NCBI GenBank assembly: GCA_012841375.1
Contig: DUUV01000047.1
Coordinates: 1-64,000, forward strand
DNA from: Candidatus Fermentithermobacillaceae bacterium
GTDB taxonomy: Bacteria; Bacillota; Sulfobacillia; Fermentithermobacillales; Fermentithermobacillaceae
DNA length: 64,000 nucleotides
Reading direction: 5' to 3'
How positions within the stretch are numbered: position 1 is the stretch's first letter; the number at the start of each line of letters is the position of its first letter. A program made the position numbers and the translations under genes. The notes under the pieces were generated by a model. It did no database searches. It was given only the letters and a program-made list of their open reading frames with translations, and was not told the origin of the DNA. Shown here one piece after another: positions 256 through 24,911 of this stretch.

Positions 256-999
256 CTACTCTCTATCCCAGTCCTGGTTGCGGGCCACTTCTCTGCCGAG
301 CTCCTCGAGTGTCAGGATCACGGGTCCCTTTGGGTCAAACACCCTGCGTGGCACGTCGTCGGGGATGACCTCAAGGATTCCCCCGAGCGTCAGTACCCGG
401 TTGTGAACCACCGAAAGCCTGATGTTGTTGTCCTTGCTGAGATGGGCCTTCCGAAGGTCCCTCTTGTACCTCTCAACAAAGGCTCTGTCGCCCTGGTATC
501 TTTGAGTAGGACCGAAGTGCTGGTCCCCATGATATTCGATAGCCCAGTAGAACTCCGGCACGTAAATGTCGTATTCCAAGTTCTGGCCCGTTTCGATGTT
601 ACGCAGGAAGTCTGGGCGGGCATGTCGGATCAGTATGACTCTCGGGGCGACCATCCACTCAAGAAAGAGCGCTGTCGTCTCCTCGCCCTTGAACGGTGCA
701 AGGTTCACCCTAATTCGGATTTGAGCAGCGATCTTGGTCTCGACATCCCGCGGAACGAGTGCCACAGGTCGCAACTTGTTACGACCCTTGATGAGGTCCA
801 TCCAGCCCAGCCTCTGAAGATTGCGCAAATGTTTGGCGAGATGCCTCGAGCCGAGGCCTGCTTCTTTTGCGAGAGCCTCAATGCAGGACGGTTGCTTGAA
901 CATGCTTTCTATGTAAATCGCTTTTTCGGTGAGAGGAAGCTCTCTGACGCCGGCCAGGTTTTCGATGATGAGCGTGTTAATGATGGCATTCGCCTCCAT
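256..999 (-). CDS. Winged-HTH protein with C-terminal PD-(D/E)XK / Vsr-like endonuclease-like region
   Basis: 247-aa ORF; N-terminal HTH-like region; C-terminal LEYDIYVPEFYWAIEYHGDQHF...RDLRK pattern typical of small nuclease folds. Confidence 0.6.
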   Translation of the reverse strand: MEANAIINTLIIENLAGVRELPLTEKAIYIESMFKQPSCIEALAKEAGLGSRHLAKHLRNLQRLGWMDLIKGRNKLRPVALVPRDVETKIAAQIRIRVNLAPFKGEETTALFLEWMVAPRVILIRHARPDFLRNIETGQNLEYDIYVPEFYWAIEYHGDQHFGPTQRYQGDRAFVERYKRDLRKAHLSKDNNIRLSVVHNRVLTLGGILEVIPDDVPRRVFDPKGPVILTLEELGREVARNQDWDRE

Positions 1000-12025: not shown

Positions 12026-12769
12026 TTAGTGAAGCATCTGGCTGAGGACTATACTGGTCATCACTCCCGCGACGGCTCCCAAGGTGCCGCTGTGGCCACC
12101 TTCCGAGAGCTCCTCGGCACCGGGAATGACTTCGTCGAACGTCACGAAGAGCATGGCTCCGGCGGCGAAGGCCAACGACGCTGATAGGACCGAAGGAGAC
12201 AAGTGGCCGAACCAGGCGCCCAAGGCCGCGCCCCCGACCGACGGTAGTCCGGTAGCTGCACTTACCAAAAGGATCTCGCTTCTCTTCCGTCCGATACACG
12301 CCAGGGGACCGGCAACTGCCATGCCTTCCGGCACATTGTGCAGGAACATGAGGGCAGCCACTCTGAATCCCAAAGACAATCCCGAGGCAAGCCCGGCTCC
12401 AACAGCCAATCCCTCCGGCAGGTCATGCATGGCTATACCCATGGCGATGACGTAGGCCGTCCTGGCGAAACGCCTGCTTTCCTCATCGCAGGAGAAATGA
12501 TGACTGTGAGGCAACAACATGTCGACGATCATGATAGTGATCGCGCCTATCACCATGAACGCAAGTGGGAGGAAGGTGCCGCCCAACTCCAGTGCTTCGG
12601 GCATGAGGTCAAACGCGACAAGCGAGACCATCACACCGCCGGAATATCCAAGGAAAAGAGAGAGAAGTTTCTTGCTGGGGTTGCCTCTCAGTGAGACGAT
12701 GAGGCCTCCGGCACCTGTTCCTACTACTCCAACTACCGCGGAAATGAGAATGATGCTAAGAAAAGACAT
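12026..12769 (-). CDS. ZIP family metal transporter
   Basis: HDLPEGLAVGAGLA and HNVPEGMAVAGPLA motifs. Confidence 0.9.
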   Translation of the reverse strand: MSFLSIILISAVVGVVGTGAGGLIVSLRGNPSKKLLSLFLGYSGGVMVSLVAFDLMPEALELGGTFLPLAFMVIGAITIMIVDMLLPHSHHFSCDEESRRFARTAYVIAMGIAMHDLPEGLAVGAGLASGLSLGFRVAALMFLHNVPEGMAVAGPLACIGRKRSEILLVSAATGLPSVGGAALGAWFGHLSPSVLSASLAFAAGAMLFVTFDEVIPGAEELSEGGHSGTLGAVAGVMTSIVLSQMLH

Positions 12770-18334: not shown

Positions 18335-19240
18335 CTAGAACGGAGCGATGGAAGCGAGAGTGCCTGAGATGAACGCCGAGACGATGAGCAGGACCACGAC
18401 TCCTACGGTGCGAGCCCTATTCCGGGATTCCTTGATCAACACCAAGATCCCCATCCCCGAGTTGGCGGTGAGCCCGCTCACGAGGGCAGGGAAGGAAACG
18501 AGCCCCGACCCGAAACCTTCCGCCAAGACCACTGACGTGGCGCACGAAGGGATCAGCCCTAGAAACGAAGCGGCCAGCGGCTGGATGATCCCTTCGCCTG
18601 AAGCGGCTGCCTCCGACAGTCTGTCGCTGAACAGGTGTCCCGCCACGTTGAAGAGAGACGATAAAACGAAAACCATGGCGGCTATGCGGAGGGCCCTGGA
18701 GAGAGCGTGGGGGACAATTTCCCGAATGGTGCCCTTGGTGCCAACGCACGTATGTGGGTGGGGGCCTCCGGCCGGGGAGCCACCCGGGAGTTCAGGGGTA
18801 GATCCCGGTCTTTTGGGCCTTCCGGCTTTTCTCGCTCCGTAGTTTACGGCGATCCCGGCAACTGCGCCCCAGACCAGCTTCGTACCCAAGAGCGGCAGTA
18901 CCCAGGCGAGGGTACTGGGGTTTGCCATCAAGATGGGTATCGCCTCATCTGAAGTGGCTATGTAGGAGGCGAGGAGCGAGCCCGTCGGGATGAATCCCTC
19001 CACATATAGGGAAGTCGTTGCCACGGAGAAACCGCACTGCGGAAGGAGACCCAACGCTGCCGCGGCGACGGGGCCTATCCAGGGATGGGCCATGCCCCTT
19101 CTCAGCCAAGCAGCTTCTGCCCGGTGCGACACGGTTTCAACCACCACGAAGGCCGTCACCAATATAGGCAGCATCCTCGCCGTGTGGACGAGACTCTCCG
19201 AGAGGACTTCTTTGATGATATCGGGAATCGTCTCAAACAT
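18335..19240 (-). CDS. ArsP_2-like 10TM putative heavy-metal exporter / manganese transporter
   Basis: Start MFETIPDI with GGAGGTCCAA upstream; duplicated PQCGFSVA / IPSCATSVVLAEGF motifs; TMs. Confidence 0.7.
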   Translation of the reverse strand: MFETIPDIIKEVLSESLVHTARMLPILVTAFVVVETVSHRAEAAWLRRGMAHPWIGPVAAAALGLLPQCGFSVATTSLYVEGFIPTGSLLASYIATSDEAIPILMANPSTLAWVLPLLGTKLVWGAVAGIAVNYGARKAGRPKRPGSTPELPGGSPAGGPHPHTCVGTKGTIREIVPHALSRALRIAAMVFVLSSLFNVAGHLFSDRLSEAAASGEGIIQPLAASFLGLIPSCATSVVLAEGFGSGLVSFPALVSGLTANSGMGILVLIKESRNRARTVGVVVLLIVSAFISGTLASIAPF

Positions 19241-19620
19241 TTGGACCTCCACGTACGTCTTACCTATAGGAGTAATCTTTGCCCGTAGAAGGAAAGGTAT
19301 GCTGACTTGGGGAAAGGTGAAGACCGAGATGTGGGTCCCAGTATGCCGATGGGGAATCCCAAGGGCGCCAGTCTGGACGAGCGGGGTGGCCATACCGACC
19401 AGTTGAAACAGCGCTCTCTGAACCATTGGCCTTGATTTTTATCATTGATCTCTTTAATAAATGAATATGTCTAGACAATTCTTCAGACCGGCGCTCGCAG
19501 GTGTCGTAAGAACGAGACAGAATCGGAATCTTGCCCGGGTCCAATGTCAGTGGACGCACAATCGCCGCCCTCAAAGTCCCGTCAAGATGGACAACCCAGG
19601 GAGAAGGGCGGGTAGGAGGA

Positions 19621-20463
19621 ATGAAAGTGCCGTACATAGCCGAGATCAGCAGAGGAAACCCGTCTTGCTTTCTGTTCCTTATCGATCAGTCAGGCTCCAT
19701 GCGAGACCCCTTCGGGGTGGATCCTTCCAAGCGTAAGGCCGACGGCGTGGCTGACGCCATAAACCGGCTCCTTCAGAATCTGGCGATCAAGTGCGCCAAG
19801 ACGGAAGGAGTGCGCGACTACTATCACGTGGGTGTCCTGGGTTACGGTCACAGGCCTGGCCCGGCTTTCGGAGGAGCACTGGCCGGTCGCGAACTGGTGC
19901 CCATAAGTGAAGTGGCGACCAATCCCGCGAGAGTTGACGAGAGGGTGCGAAAAGTCGAGGACGGTACAGGAGGGCTCGTCGACCAGACCGTCAAGTTCCC
20001 GATCTGGTTCGACCCTGTCGCGAACGGCGGCACTCCCATGTGTCAGGCTCTCACGCGCGCCCAGAGCATCGTGCAGAGTTTCATCGCCGAGCATCCCGAC
20101 TGTTTCCCGCCGATAGTCATCAACATCACCGACGGGGAGGCTACCGACGGCAACCCCACCGCTCCGGCCGAGGCGCTCCGAAATCTCGCCTCCACCGACG
20201 GCAACGTGCTTCTTTTCAACTTGCACCTCTCGTCTCAGAAGGCTTCTCCTATCGAGTTTCCTGACTCCGATGAGAACTTGCCAGACAACTACGCGAAGCT
20301 CCTTTTCAACATGTCATCCAAGCTTCCCGAGTACATGCGGGGGATTGCCGAGGAAGAGGGGTTCAAGACGACCGAGAACACCAGAGGTTTCGTATTTAAC
20401 GGAGATTTGGTGTCCGTCATCAGGTTCCTCGACATCGGGACCAGGCCGGCGAACCTCCGGTGA
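19621..20463 (+). CDS. vWA domain protein (TerY-like)
   Basis: FLIDQSGSM MIDAS, GGTPMCQAL, VINITDGEATDG; SD TAGGAGGA. Confidence 0.85.
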   Translation: MKVPYIAEISRGNPSCFLFLIDQSGSMRDPFGVDPSKRKADGVADAINRLLQNLAIKCAKTEGVRDYYHVGVLGYGHRPGPAFGGALAGRELVPISEVATNPARVDERVRKVEDGTGGLVDQTVKFPIWFDPVANGGTPMCQALTRAQSIVQSFIAEHPDCFPPIVINITDGEATDGNPTAPAEALRNLASTDGNVLLFNLHLSSQKASPIEFPDSDENLPDNYAKLLFNMSSKLPEYMRGIAEEEGFKTTENTRGFVFNGDLVSVIRFLDIGTRPANLR

Positions 20464-20506
20464 CGGATGTGACTGCCGGGGACTTAAGCCCGGCCGGGAA
20501 TGGGTC

Positions 20507-21274
20507 ATGAGAATAGAATCAGAGACGCGCTGGCTCCCGAAGAGGGGCAACACGGTTTCAGAATACGAAGACGCCTTCTATCCGAAGGAGGCTCCAAAGG
20601 GCCGGGAGGGGTGCCTTAGGTTTGCCGTTTCCGACGGAGCCAGCGAGTCCATGCTGTCCGGTCCGTGGGCCGAGATTCTGGTGAAGACCTTTTGTCGAAG
20701 CAACGTGCCCGTCACCAAGGCATCGGCCAGGGGGATCATCGAAAGGGCCTCAATGGCCTACGAGGCCTGGCTCAAGGATTACCTCCGGCGAAGGGAACGT
20801 AGCGAACGGCCTGTCCAGTGGTATGAGGAACCCGGTCTCCAGGCGGGGGCTTTCGCTACTCTGCTCGGGCTGTCGCTGGTCACGGGGGCTTCCGGGGATG
20901 GCTTTCGGTGGGAGGCCGTCTGCCTCGGCGACAGCTGTCTCTTTCACGTCAGGGAGGACAGGCTCATCACCAGTTTCGCAATGACGCGTTCGTCAGATTT
21001 CAGCCAGCGCCCTGTTCTCCTGTCGACGAACCCCGCCAAGAACCGGTTGGCTCTAGGAAAACTGAAGGTTACGTCCGGCACATGTCATCCGGGCGATGTG
21101 TTCTATTTGATGACCGACGCGCTGGCCGCATGGTTTCTACGAGAACACGAGCGATGCGACGCTCCATGGACGTTGCTGGACGCCCTGGATTTCGAGGACC
21201 TGGTGACCGGTCTTCGCCAAGAAGGCTTAATGCGGAATGACGATGTTACCATGACGAGCATACGGGTGGTGTAG
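20507..21274 (+). CDS. PP2C-family protein phosphatase
   Basis: AVSDGASESMLSGPWAE, CLGDSCLFHVRED, MTDALAAWFL; start MRIESETRW. Confidence 0.8.
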   Translation: MRIESETRWLPKRGNTVSEYEDAFYPKEAPKGREGCLRFAVSDGASESMLSGPWAEILVKTFCRSNVPVTKASARGIIERASMAYEAWLKDYLRRRERSERPVQWYEEPGLQAGAFATLLGLSLVTGASGDGFRWEAVCLGDSCLFHVREDRLITSFAMTRSSDFSQRPVLLSTNPAKNRLALGKLKVTSGTCHPGDVFYLMTDALAAWFLREHERCDAPWTLLDALDFEDLVTGLRQEGLMRNDDVTMTSIRVV

Positions 21275-21287
21275 AGGGAGCAAGAAG

Positions 21288-23216
21288 ATGCAGTGGCCCA
21301 CTATGAGCGACTATCAGGATGCCATGCAGAACCCGGGCCTCTCTTTCGCCGATCCTGAACTGAGGGGCGGGACCCCGGTTACCGACAGTCTGGGACTGCC
21401 GAAACCCATAACCGGAGGGTTCGCCAGTGTCTACCAGGTAGTGAGCGGCGGGAGTAAGTGGGCTGTCCGCTGTTTCCTGAGGCACCACCAAGACAGCGAG
21501 CAACGCTATGCGGCTATCGGCCGCACGCTGTCGGGTTCTCGCTTGCCTTACACGGTTGCGTTCCAGTACTTGAGGGACGGCATCCGCGTGAAGAACAAGT
21601 GGTATCCCATACTGAAAATGGAGTGGGTTGACGGCGAGCCGCTCAACACTTATGTGGCTAAGCACAGATCCAATCCCAGGGCCCTCAAGGAACTGGCAGA
21701 CGCCTTTTCCCTGATGTGTCGAGAACTGAGATCCAAGTCCATAGCCCACGGCGACCTGCAGCACGGAAACATCCTCGTGGTTGATGGCAGGCTCAAACTC
21801 GTGGATTACGACTGCATGTACGTGCCGGGGCTCGACGGTCTCCCCAGCCACGAAGTCGGGCACCCTAACTACCAGCACCCCAAGCGGGGCCAGGATGACT
21901 TCGGCCCCTATCTGGACTTCTTTTCCGAGTGGGTTATCTATGTATCCCTGACGGCGCTTTCGGTACGCCCGGACCTCTGGGACCACCTGCAGGTGGGAGA
22001 CGAGCAACTCCTTTTCTCCCAGAGGGATTTCTTGAACCCGGCTGGGTCAAGAGTCCTGAGAGCCATGGGGGAGTCAGGCGACCCTCTCCTGGAAGGGTTG
22101 TCAGCGTCGTTCCGGCAAGTCATCATGTTGGGCGACGTCTCCTCGGTGCCTCCGCCGGACACATCCGGCGACCCTTCGCGCCTCAAGTATCAGTTGGGAG
22201 CGCCGGCAGGACCCGGAGGGTTCCTTGGCAGTATAGTCGAGAAGATCAGACTGCCGAAGCAAAGGCCTGCTAAGGAAGGAGAAGCGGGTGCGAAGCGCGA
22301 TGGAGAGGCGGTTTCGCCGGCGAAGCAGAGTGTAGCCGCCTCAGGCACGGGCTCTCTTCCTTCGTGGGTCCGCGGTCACTTGCAGCCCGCGGCCGTACGA
22401 CTGTCACCTCCGTTTTCAGTCGACCGGGCGGTAGTAGGCGGATACGCTGCAGCTTTATTCGCGCTCTACAGGTTTCACGTTGCGGGATACCTTTCTCTAC
22501 AGGTAGCGTTGTGGTGCGGCGCCGGAGGCTGTATTGGGACAACGGCGGCGCTCATCTGGAGATATCTCATCCGTCCCGAGTTCAGGCAGAAAAAAGTCCT
22601 CTTGGATGAGCTGAGGACAGCCAGGCGGCAGGCGAAACGGGTGGAAAAAACCATCAAGAAACTGCAGAAAGAAAAAGACGCCGTCTTGGAGAGAGAGCGT
22701 AAGAGCGTCGAAAACATTCTCTACCGGTTGAGCCAATTGGGCCGGGACGAGCAGGAAGAGACCGGGCGCGTTGACTTGTGGCTTAAAGAACAGGTTTCAA
22801 GTGTGGTCGAACGTCGCGAAGCTCTGAACAAGGCCGAAGCCGAGGAACTGGCCAAAGCGGCCAACAGCATCCAATTACCGTTCCTCGGTAAGAGGGCTTC
22901 CTCCATAATGAAGAACTACCGCAAAAAGCGCGAACCCCTGCTCCGCAGAGAGGAAAAGGTCCGGCTGGATGCTCAGAAGAGGAAAGACCTGATACGTCGC
23001 AATTACTCCCGCCAGGAACAGGTATTCCACATGAAGCTCGCAGAGGTTAAGATGAACTATGGAAAGGATGCCGGAGCCCTCGACAAGAAGATAAGGGATG
23101 AGAACTCCCGGCTAAAGTCCTTCCGCGAGACCGAGAGCAATCTCTCCCGCGAGCTCAGGCTGTACGCCGAAGTCAGCTTTGGGACATACCTGCGCCGGAT
23201 AGCTTTCATTCCGTAA
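21288..23216 (+). CDS. Protein kinase-like protein with TM segment and coiled coil
   Basis: GGFASVYQV, HGDLQHGNILV, KLVDYDCMYVPG; C-terminal TM, coiled coil and FGTYLRRIAF tail. Confidence 0.8.
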   Translation: MQWPTMSDYQDAMQNPGLSFADPELRGGTPVTDSLGLPKPITGGFASVYQVVSGGSKWAVRCFLRHHQDSEQRYAAIGRTLSGSRLPYTVAFQYLRDGIRVKNKWYPILKMEWVDGEPLNTYVAKHRSNPRALKELADAFSLMCRELRSKSIAHGDLQHGNILVVDGRLKLVDYDCMYVPGLDGLPSHEVGHPNYQHPKRGQDDFGPYLDFFSEWVIYVSLTALSVRPDLWDHLQVGDEQLLFSQRDFLNPAGSRVLRAMGESGDPLLEGLSASFRQVIMLGDVSSVPPPDTSGDPSRLKYQLGAPAGPGGFLGSIVEKIRLPKQRPAKEGEAGAKRDGEAVSPAKQSVAASGTGSLPSWVRGHLQPAAVRLSPPFSVDRAVVGGYAAALFALYRFHVAGYLSLQVALWCGAGGCIGTTAALIWRYLIRPEFRQKKVLLDELRTARRQAKRVEKTIKKLQKEKDAVLERERKSVENILYRLSQLGRDEQEETGRVDLWLKEQVSSVVERREALNKAEAEELAKAANSIQLPFLGKRASSIMKNYRKKREPLLRREEKVRLDAQKRKDLIRRNYSRQEQVFHMKLAEVKMNYGKDAGALDKKIRDENSRLKSFRETESNLSRELRLYAEVSFGTYLRRIAFIP

Positions 23217-23294: not shown

Positions 23295-24911
23295 GTGACT
23301 GAATTGCCTAACCACATAGGGTCTTCCGTCAGGACAGGCCGTCCGCCGGGCCGGGTGTCAAGTCCGGGGGGTCCCAACAGGATTCTCTTCGCGGCTCCCA
23401 TATGGGGTATTTTGCTTACGATCTTATCACTTACCGCAACGGCTTGTCTGGGGGGAAAGAACGTTCTCCCTAAGGTATCCGGAGTGTTGGATCCCAGGAT
23501 AGTTGCGGAGTTTGAGGTTCAAGGGTGGGCATGGACCGATGATCCCGAGAACGTGATATCTCCGGACGGTAAACACGTACTCGCGGTCCTGAACAACGAG
23601 GAACGTAAGGCGCTGGCCGTTATCCCGGTCGAGGGCGAAAGCCACGACGCGAAGATATTGCATGAAGCTCCGGCTGGATGGGTAGAAGGGGACGGTCTGG
23701 ATTACCGGACACTAGGGTGGACCCGAGACGGTGTTCCGCTGTTCGTGGTCTCCGGGTACCAGAACCGTGGGCCCAACGCGGGCAAGAGGGGAGTGGCCAT
23801 CTGGTCCGGGGGTGCTCCGGAAGGGATCGCGGAGGAACTCACCTTCATCGACCTGCCCGCCGGCGACTTGCACACGTCAGTCTACCTCCCTGAAGAAGAC
23901 AAAGTTTTCATCTCGGTCTCTGCGGCGATCTACTCTTACGACCTGGCAGGCAACCGCGTGACGCCGGTGAAGACCGGTCTGCCCACGTATGACGACTTGT
24001 TTTACGCCAGGCTTTCCCCCGACGGGAGACATTTCGTCTACGAGCTGTTCGAGGAAGGGAAGAGCGGGGTATATATCCTGGACGCCGTGTCCGGGAAAGA
24101 AGAGGCGCTCCTCGCCACCGGTCCGACCTTCAGCTTTGTTCCCCAGTGGTCACCCGATGGGAAGTATGTGGCTGTGTATACGTCAGACCGTAAGGCCGGT
24201 ATCGACGGTACATCAGCGGAAGATTACGATTGCTTCCTAGGGACGGCCGGACCGCTCACCATCGCGCCCGCCATCACAATCGTGGATACTTCGGGGAAAG
24301 TGGTCCAGACCGTTCGTGTTGAAGGCAAGTATCTTGCCAACATGAAGTGGTCTCTTGACTCCAAATCCATCGCCTTTGTAACCGGAGACAGGGCGGCAGC
24401 CGAGGAGAACCGCTATGCCGAGATGGGGATACCCAATGTGCAGTGGGACGGAGTCTGGACTCACAAGATAGGCGAAGGCAGCGTGCCTTTGCGGATCGCG
24501 ATTCTAACGCCTCCCGCCGGTGAGGGGCCGTCTTTTGCGTATCCGTGTGACTTCGACGCAGCGGGTGAAGGCGTTTTCTACCAGTACGGAGATATGGAGA
24601 ACATCTCGGTCTGGTACGGTGGTCCCGGGAAGGGCGCGAGCACCGAAACTCCCCTCCCCCCGGTGAAAATTGCCGACGGTTACTGGCACCCCCAATACTC
24701 AAATCCGCAGTTTGGCGAGTATCTCGCAGCCCTCATATCAGGTGACGAAACGACGGAGCTGTGGCTCTTGGGGCCTAAGATGCGGAAGGTCGATTACTGG
24801 AGCTCTATGTTTACAACCGGGCTCCTTGGGTTCAATGAGGACACCATCCTCCTGTTCCATAGGGAAGGAGACGGGCCGGCCAAAGTCCTGGTTTTTTCGG
24901 TGTATGAGTGA
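23295..24911 (+). CDS. TolB-like/PD40 beta-propeller protein, probable lipoprotein
   Basis: LTATACLGG lipobox-like, repeated SPDGK/SPDGR and [11 protein letters not shown] blades; GTG start. Confidence 0.7.

Follow-up and report, generated by a model that had tools for sequence, protein, structure and literature searches.

A chromosomal vWA-PP2C-kinase triad of the broad TerY-P kind with a conserved vWA C-terminal tail and a predicted coiled-coil kinase in a Fermentithermobacillaceae bacterium

Reading of the open reading frames in a 64,000-nucleotide contig stretch from a Candidatus Fermentithermobacillaceae bacterium (hereafter the window) places genes for a von Willebrand factor A (vWA) protein, a PP2C protein phosphatase, and a Ser/Thr kinase in this order, closely spaced and all on the forward strand (Table 1). 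The start of the PP2C gene was set at position 20507 by homology to relatives, whereas the longest open reading frame begins at 20270. A divergently oriented permease gene lies upstream of the triad and a probable lipoprotein gene lies downstream. Scans for promoters and terminators of the triad gave an uninformative upstream region and no terminators above those of shuffled sequence.

Table 1. Features of the triad locus. Positions are nucleotides of the window unless given as amino acids (aa) of the kinase.
Feature	Position	Strand	Basis or remark
ArsP_2/arsenic-efflux permease gene	18335..19426	-	divergent; Pfam ArsP_2 3.7e-18, NCBIfam arsenic_eff 1.6e-50
Putative GGAGG-type ribosome-binding site region GTAGGAGGAATG	19616..19620	+	directly 5' of vWA start; sequence reading
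vWA (TerY-type) gene	19621..20463	+	280 aa; intact MIDAS (DQSGSM, T138, D171)
vWA tail IGTRPANLR, codons 272-280	20434..20460	+	stop directly after; conservation, pLDDT
PP2C protein phosphatase gene	20507..21274	+	255 aa; metal-binding Asp residues intact
Ser/Thr kinase gene	21288..23216	+	642 aa
Kinase domain	aa 1-280		AF2
Kinase disordered linker	aa ~304-357		AF2
Kinase short helices	aa 377-398, 404-428		AF2
Kinase long helices	aa 430-527, 530-624 (turn 528-529)		AF2
Kinase C-terminal helix	aa 631-638		AF2
Kinase hairpin-turn region around NSIQLPFLGKRASSIMKNYR	22863..22925 (aa ~526-546)	+	alignment with relatives outside the genus; AF2 turn
Probable lipoprotein gene with PD40 beta-propeller repeats	23295..24911	+	downstream; Pfam PD40 2.6e-07; hydrophobic N-terminus 2.11

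The first-pass annotation had described the locus as a TerY-P-like triad with intact motifs, and this description is borne out by profile searches and residue checks. The vWA protein matches the PADLOC TerY model with an E value of 3.4e-109, the match running to model position 277 of 277, and the Pfam VWA model at 5e-05. Its AF2 model has a mean pLDDT of 82.8, and the best Foldseek matches to this model are chiefly vWA/I-domain folds. The phosphatase matches PADLOC PP2C (3.3e-30) and Pfam PP2C_2 (9.2e-06). The kinase matches PADLOC STK_OB at 3e-79, through residues 1-262 only and with 265 of the 562 model positions covered, and Pfam Pkinase at 3.8e-08; a Foldseek search of the PDB with its model confirmed the kinase fold. 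Thus, none of the three genes was assigned to an unrelated family in the Pfam and PADLOC searches. Pairwise sequence searches of the PDB returned nothing but chance matches for the vWA and PP2C proteins and weak matches for the kinase.

The residues expected of each family are in place. In the vWA protein, MIDAS residues D22, S24, S26, T138, and D171 are intact and are conserved in 50 of 50 homologs. The PP2C protein retains metal residues D22, D43, D142, D204, and D245/D246; E21, D22, D43, G44, D142, D204, D245, and D246 are conserved, with the metal residues kept in all or nearly all homologs. With a TerY-type vWA protein bearing a MIDAS, a PP2C on the same strand, and a kinase of the STK_OB/TerY-P subfamily all present, the locus holds a TerY-P triad in the broad sense.

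The active site of the kinase deserves closer attention. Its HGDLQHGN loop (residues 154-161), which is of the sort seen in APH/RIO-type kinases, and D173 are intact, and among 87 homologs Asn161 and Asp173 are invariant while Asp156 is kept in 86. The position of the ATP-binding beta3 lysine is occupied by Arg61 (Arg in 78 and Lys in 9 of the 87 homologs), and the DFG motif reads DYD. Replacement of the beta3 lysine by arginine lowers activity in many kinases, and these two departures would suit a pseudokinase scaffold, in which case the PP2C would target the substrates of other kinases and the vWA protein would assemble the complex. We consider this arrangement very improbable, given the near-invariance of the HGD aspartate, Asn161, and Asp173 and the interchange of Arg and Lys at position 61. 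Furthermore, E. coli YegI is active though described as being without conserved motifs, according to a paper cited in PMC13232886. As judged from its sequence, the window kinase is likely to be catalytically active.

Beyond its catalytic domain, the kinase has an architecture that the first-pass annotation had not described. The AF2 model (mean pLDDT of 89.0) is helical throughout its C-terminal part, where two long helices of ~95 residues each, mostly with pLDDT above 90, form an antiparallel hairpin of ~15 nm. Neither an OB-fold nor a zinc ribbon is present on the C-terminus, as judged from both the coverage of the STK_OB profile and the AF2 model. The two short helices that precede the long hairpin probably form a transmembrane (TM) hairpin that anchors the kinase in the membrane. 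Their hydropathy in the window protein peaks at 1.48 against a threshold of 1.6, whereas the same region reaches 1.6-3.0 in many relatives; because the value for the window protein is marginal, the proposed anchoring draws mainly on these relatives. Positively charged residues come after the second short helix, which is consistent with a cytoplasmic location of the coiled coil. Alignment also revealed that most relatives sharing this kinase architecture carry a tandem helix-hairpin-helix (HhH) at the tip of the hairpin; none of the four species of the genus has one. Note that a scripted sorting of kinase C-termini by composition was set aside as too crude for counts.

This layout resembles that of E. 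coli YegI, which is encoded within the yegL-pphC(yegK)-yegI genes, a set comprising the same three gene kinds. According to the 2026 paper PMC13232886, citing Rajagopalan and colleagues, YegI is a Ser/Thr kinase that is bound to the membrane, autophosphorylates, and is dephosphorylated by PphC. Upon reading its sequence, we found a kinase followed by hydrophobic stretches, a coiled-coil-like region, and HhH-like motifs. The window kinase, as modeled, is architecturally like YegI minus the HhH tip; its coiled-coil hairpin is clear in the AF2 model, whereas its TM hydropathy is marginal. Sequence similarity to the E. coli proteins is only distant: a local match links the window vWA protein to YegL (E value of 5e-05), but the kinase and PP2C proteins yielded no significant pairwise BLASTP match to YegI and PphC, and therefore the comparison with E. 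coli is one of gene set and architecture.

Several other systems use the same gene set. The tellurite-resistance TerY-phosphorylation triad (Anantharaman et al. 2012) comprises vWA, PP2C, and kinase genes, as recounted in PMC11090510. The window genome (97.8% complete) shares this set but gave no match to TerD or TerC, whereas control genomes did match, so that the stand-alone character proposed in the first-pass annotation holds with respect to these two genes. The TerY-P triads (vWA, PP2C, STK) of Type II and Type III-A CoCoNuT systems have kinases that end in a zinc ribbon and reside in operons with McrBC-like nucleases (PMC11090510), but no genes of this kind were found beside the window triad. 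The antiphage TerY-P system (TerY/PP2C/STK_OB; Gao et al. 2020) is alike in its three gene families, with the vWA model matched over its full length and a strong match for the kinase domain. It differs in that its kinase ends in an OB-fold rather than in a putative TM hairpin and a coiled-coil hairpin. The window triad is chromosomal, syntenic, and outside any recognizable defense island. We place it within TerY-P in the broad sense but outside the STK-OB antiphage subtype.

We next consider the distribution of the triad. Each of the four species of the genus has it, within one shared gene neighborhood, and the triad kinase was found in none of 10 genomes from other genera of the family. Besides the genus, TerY was detected in one further genome among 57 relatives. 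Across the phylum, 5 of 399 genomes carry it, two of the five through weak matches. Homologous triads occur in genomes and metagenome-assembled genomes (MAGs) labeled as Anaerolineae/Chloroflexi, Planctomycetota, Acidobacteria, Deltaproteobacteria, Paenibacillus, and others. At 43 of the 70 homologous kinase loci that had enough upstream sequence, the vWA-PP2C-kinase order is kept on one strand, with median gaps of 12.5 and 11 nucleotides. Between the three proteins, pairwise distances show correlations of r = 0.78-0.89, which were equaled in none of 500 permutations, and therefore the three proteins evolve largely as a unit. Separately, many Obscuribacterales genomes carry several copies of the kinase subfamily (L060, L047, L052, L070, and other loci), often with no vWA or PP2C gene nearby and with varied C-termini.

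These data bear on whether the triad is an antiphage system like that of Gao et al. 2020, in which a phage signal would shift the balance of kinase and phosphatase and phage growth would be blocked. PADLOC recognizes all three components (TerY, PP2C, and the kinase domain), and the patchy occurrence within the phylum is also in keeping with such a function. TerY-P is known to act against T7-like phages (PMC7699616) and, in Pseudomonas, against Autographiviridae (PMC10889362), and the kinase of its stand-alone antiphage form bears an OB-fold (PMC11090510). However, the window kinase has neither this fold nor a zinc ribbon, and the triad is syntenic throughout the genus. Homologs of the vWA protein were found in just 2 of 72,556 plasmids, one of which is an Acaryochloris conjugative plasmid, and in no phage records. 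Only a handful of the 120 ORFs neighboring related triads match PADLOC models at 1e-10, chiefly generic helicases and AAA ATPases, and the Pfam matches among such neighbors are diverse and mostly to housekeeping families. Thus, the association with defense suggested by the first-pass annotation finds no support in this copy, and on these indirect grounds we regard a dedicated antiphage role as unlikely. The best reading is that the triad is a stably inherited chromosomal phospho-signaling switch.

The neighboring permease raises another possibility, namely that the triad responds to metal through its MIDAS site and governs the ArsP_2 exporter. In each species of the genus, four of four, the divergent ArsP_2 gene adjoins the triad, and metal sensing has been proposed for TerY-P (PMC11090510). 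A ZIP-family metal transporter gene (12026-12769) also lies ~7 kb away, beyond the ArsP_2 permease gene as seen from the triad. Nevertheless, a sister genus that lacks the triad has a nucleosidase-ABC-F-ArsP_2 block, and ArsP_2 is present in 11 of 14 family genomes compared with four for the triad kinase. No related triad outside the genus was found to have a match to the window ArsP_2 nearby, and the adjacency looks like that of a landing site. Since the sister genus has the block but not the triad, we rejected co-function with ArsP_2 as the main reading and consider it improbable. ArsP_2 is probably older at the locus than the triad. Because the sister genus has the block alone, the triad was probably acquired next to this pre-existing block, or lost elsewhere, and has since been retained. 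A spacer motif between the ArsP_2 and vWA genes that is common to relatives is poorly kept in the window. In one species of the genus, ~4.6 kb separate the ArsP_2 and ABC-F genes (L090:13106-17762; G002:C26), unlike the arrangement in the window and in G001.

On the other side of the triad, the gene for the PD40 lipoprotein is syntenic in the genus and could share a transcription unit with the triad. Four matches to this beta-propeller family were found in the window genome, and most family members have 1-5. In an Anaerolineae MAG (L011:1104-5388), three tandem paralogous genes lie between the vWA and PP2C genes; at least two of them encode a signal-peptide-like N-terminus, and one gave a weak WD40 match (E value of 0.22). 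No similarity between these paralogs and the window beta-propeller protein was detected by phmmer. A link between beta-propeller proteins and the triad is a weak lead.

The second addition to the first-pass annotation is the C-terminal tail of the vWA protein. Residues 272-280 have a mean conservation of 92% in an alignment of 50 sequences and rank second among 272 nine-residue windows, with the region of the MIDAS loop ranking first. T274 is invariant (50 of 50), and the final Arg of the consensus IGTRPxxLR is the exact C-terminus in nearly all vWA homologs. These same residues have pLDDT values below 50 in the AF2 model and are thus predicted to be disordered. Termini that are disordered but near-invariant generally serve in binding or as sites of modification. 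The tail is found across phyla, regardless of whether the kinase of the triad ends in a zinc-ribbon-like, WD40-like, or coiled-coil region. YegL is without it. Because the tail is present whatever the C-terminal region of the kinase, its probable partner is a component that the triads share, either the kinase domain or the PP2C. Conservation and predicted disorder together suggest that it may be a docking or phospho-acceptor site for the kinase or the phosphatase. In the literature examined, we found no account of the mechanism by which the vWA protein couples kinase to phosphatase in TerY-P. We tentatively propose, while leaning toward doubt, that TerY vWA proteins act via the widespread C-terminal linear motif IGTRPxxLR-COOH, which would plug into, or be phosphorylated by, the kinase or PP2C.

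The model that we somewhat favor for the whole triad is a switch based on reversible phosphorylation, encoded on the chromosome and akin to TerY-P/YegI-PphC-YegL. The short TM hairpin would probably tether the kinase to the inner face of the membrane, such that its catalytic domain and the ~15-nm coiled-coil hairpin would lie in the cytoplasm. The PP2C is predicted to strip phosphates that the kinase places on itself and on its targets. The vWA protein, binding a divalent metal at its MIDAS, would serve as an adaptor that couples kinase and phosphatase, and its near-invariant, disordered tail may be phosphorylated by the shared kinase domain or may dock on this domain or on the PP2C. The coiled-coil hairpin might sense or recruit a partner, in this genus no longer through an HhH tip. 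Such a switch would likely function in membrane-proximal stress signaling rather than in dedicated phage immunity.

TerY-P modules are widespread, and their mostly chromosomal, syntenic distribution indicates that a PADLOC-style TerY-P call alone is not evidence of phage defense. If the proposal for the vWA tail is true, the vWA protein would be the regulatory substrate of a module present in many phyla, whose kinase outputs are swappable and include a membrane-anchored coiled-coil antenna. The conserved, disordered tail, the most useful new observation made here, offers a small, specific handle by which the entire family can be tested, its antiphage forms among them.
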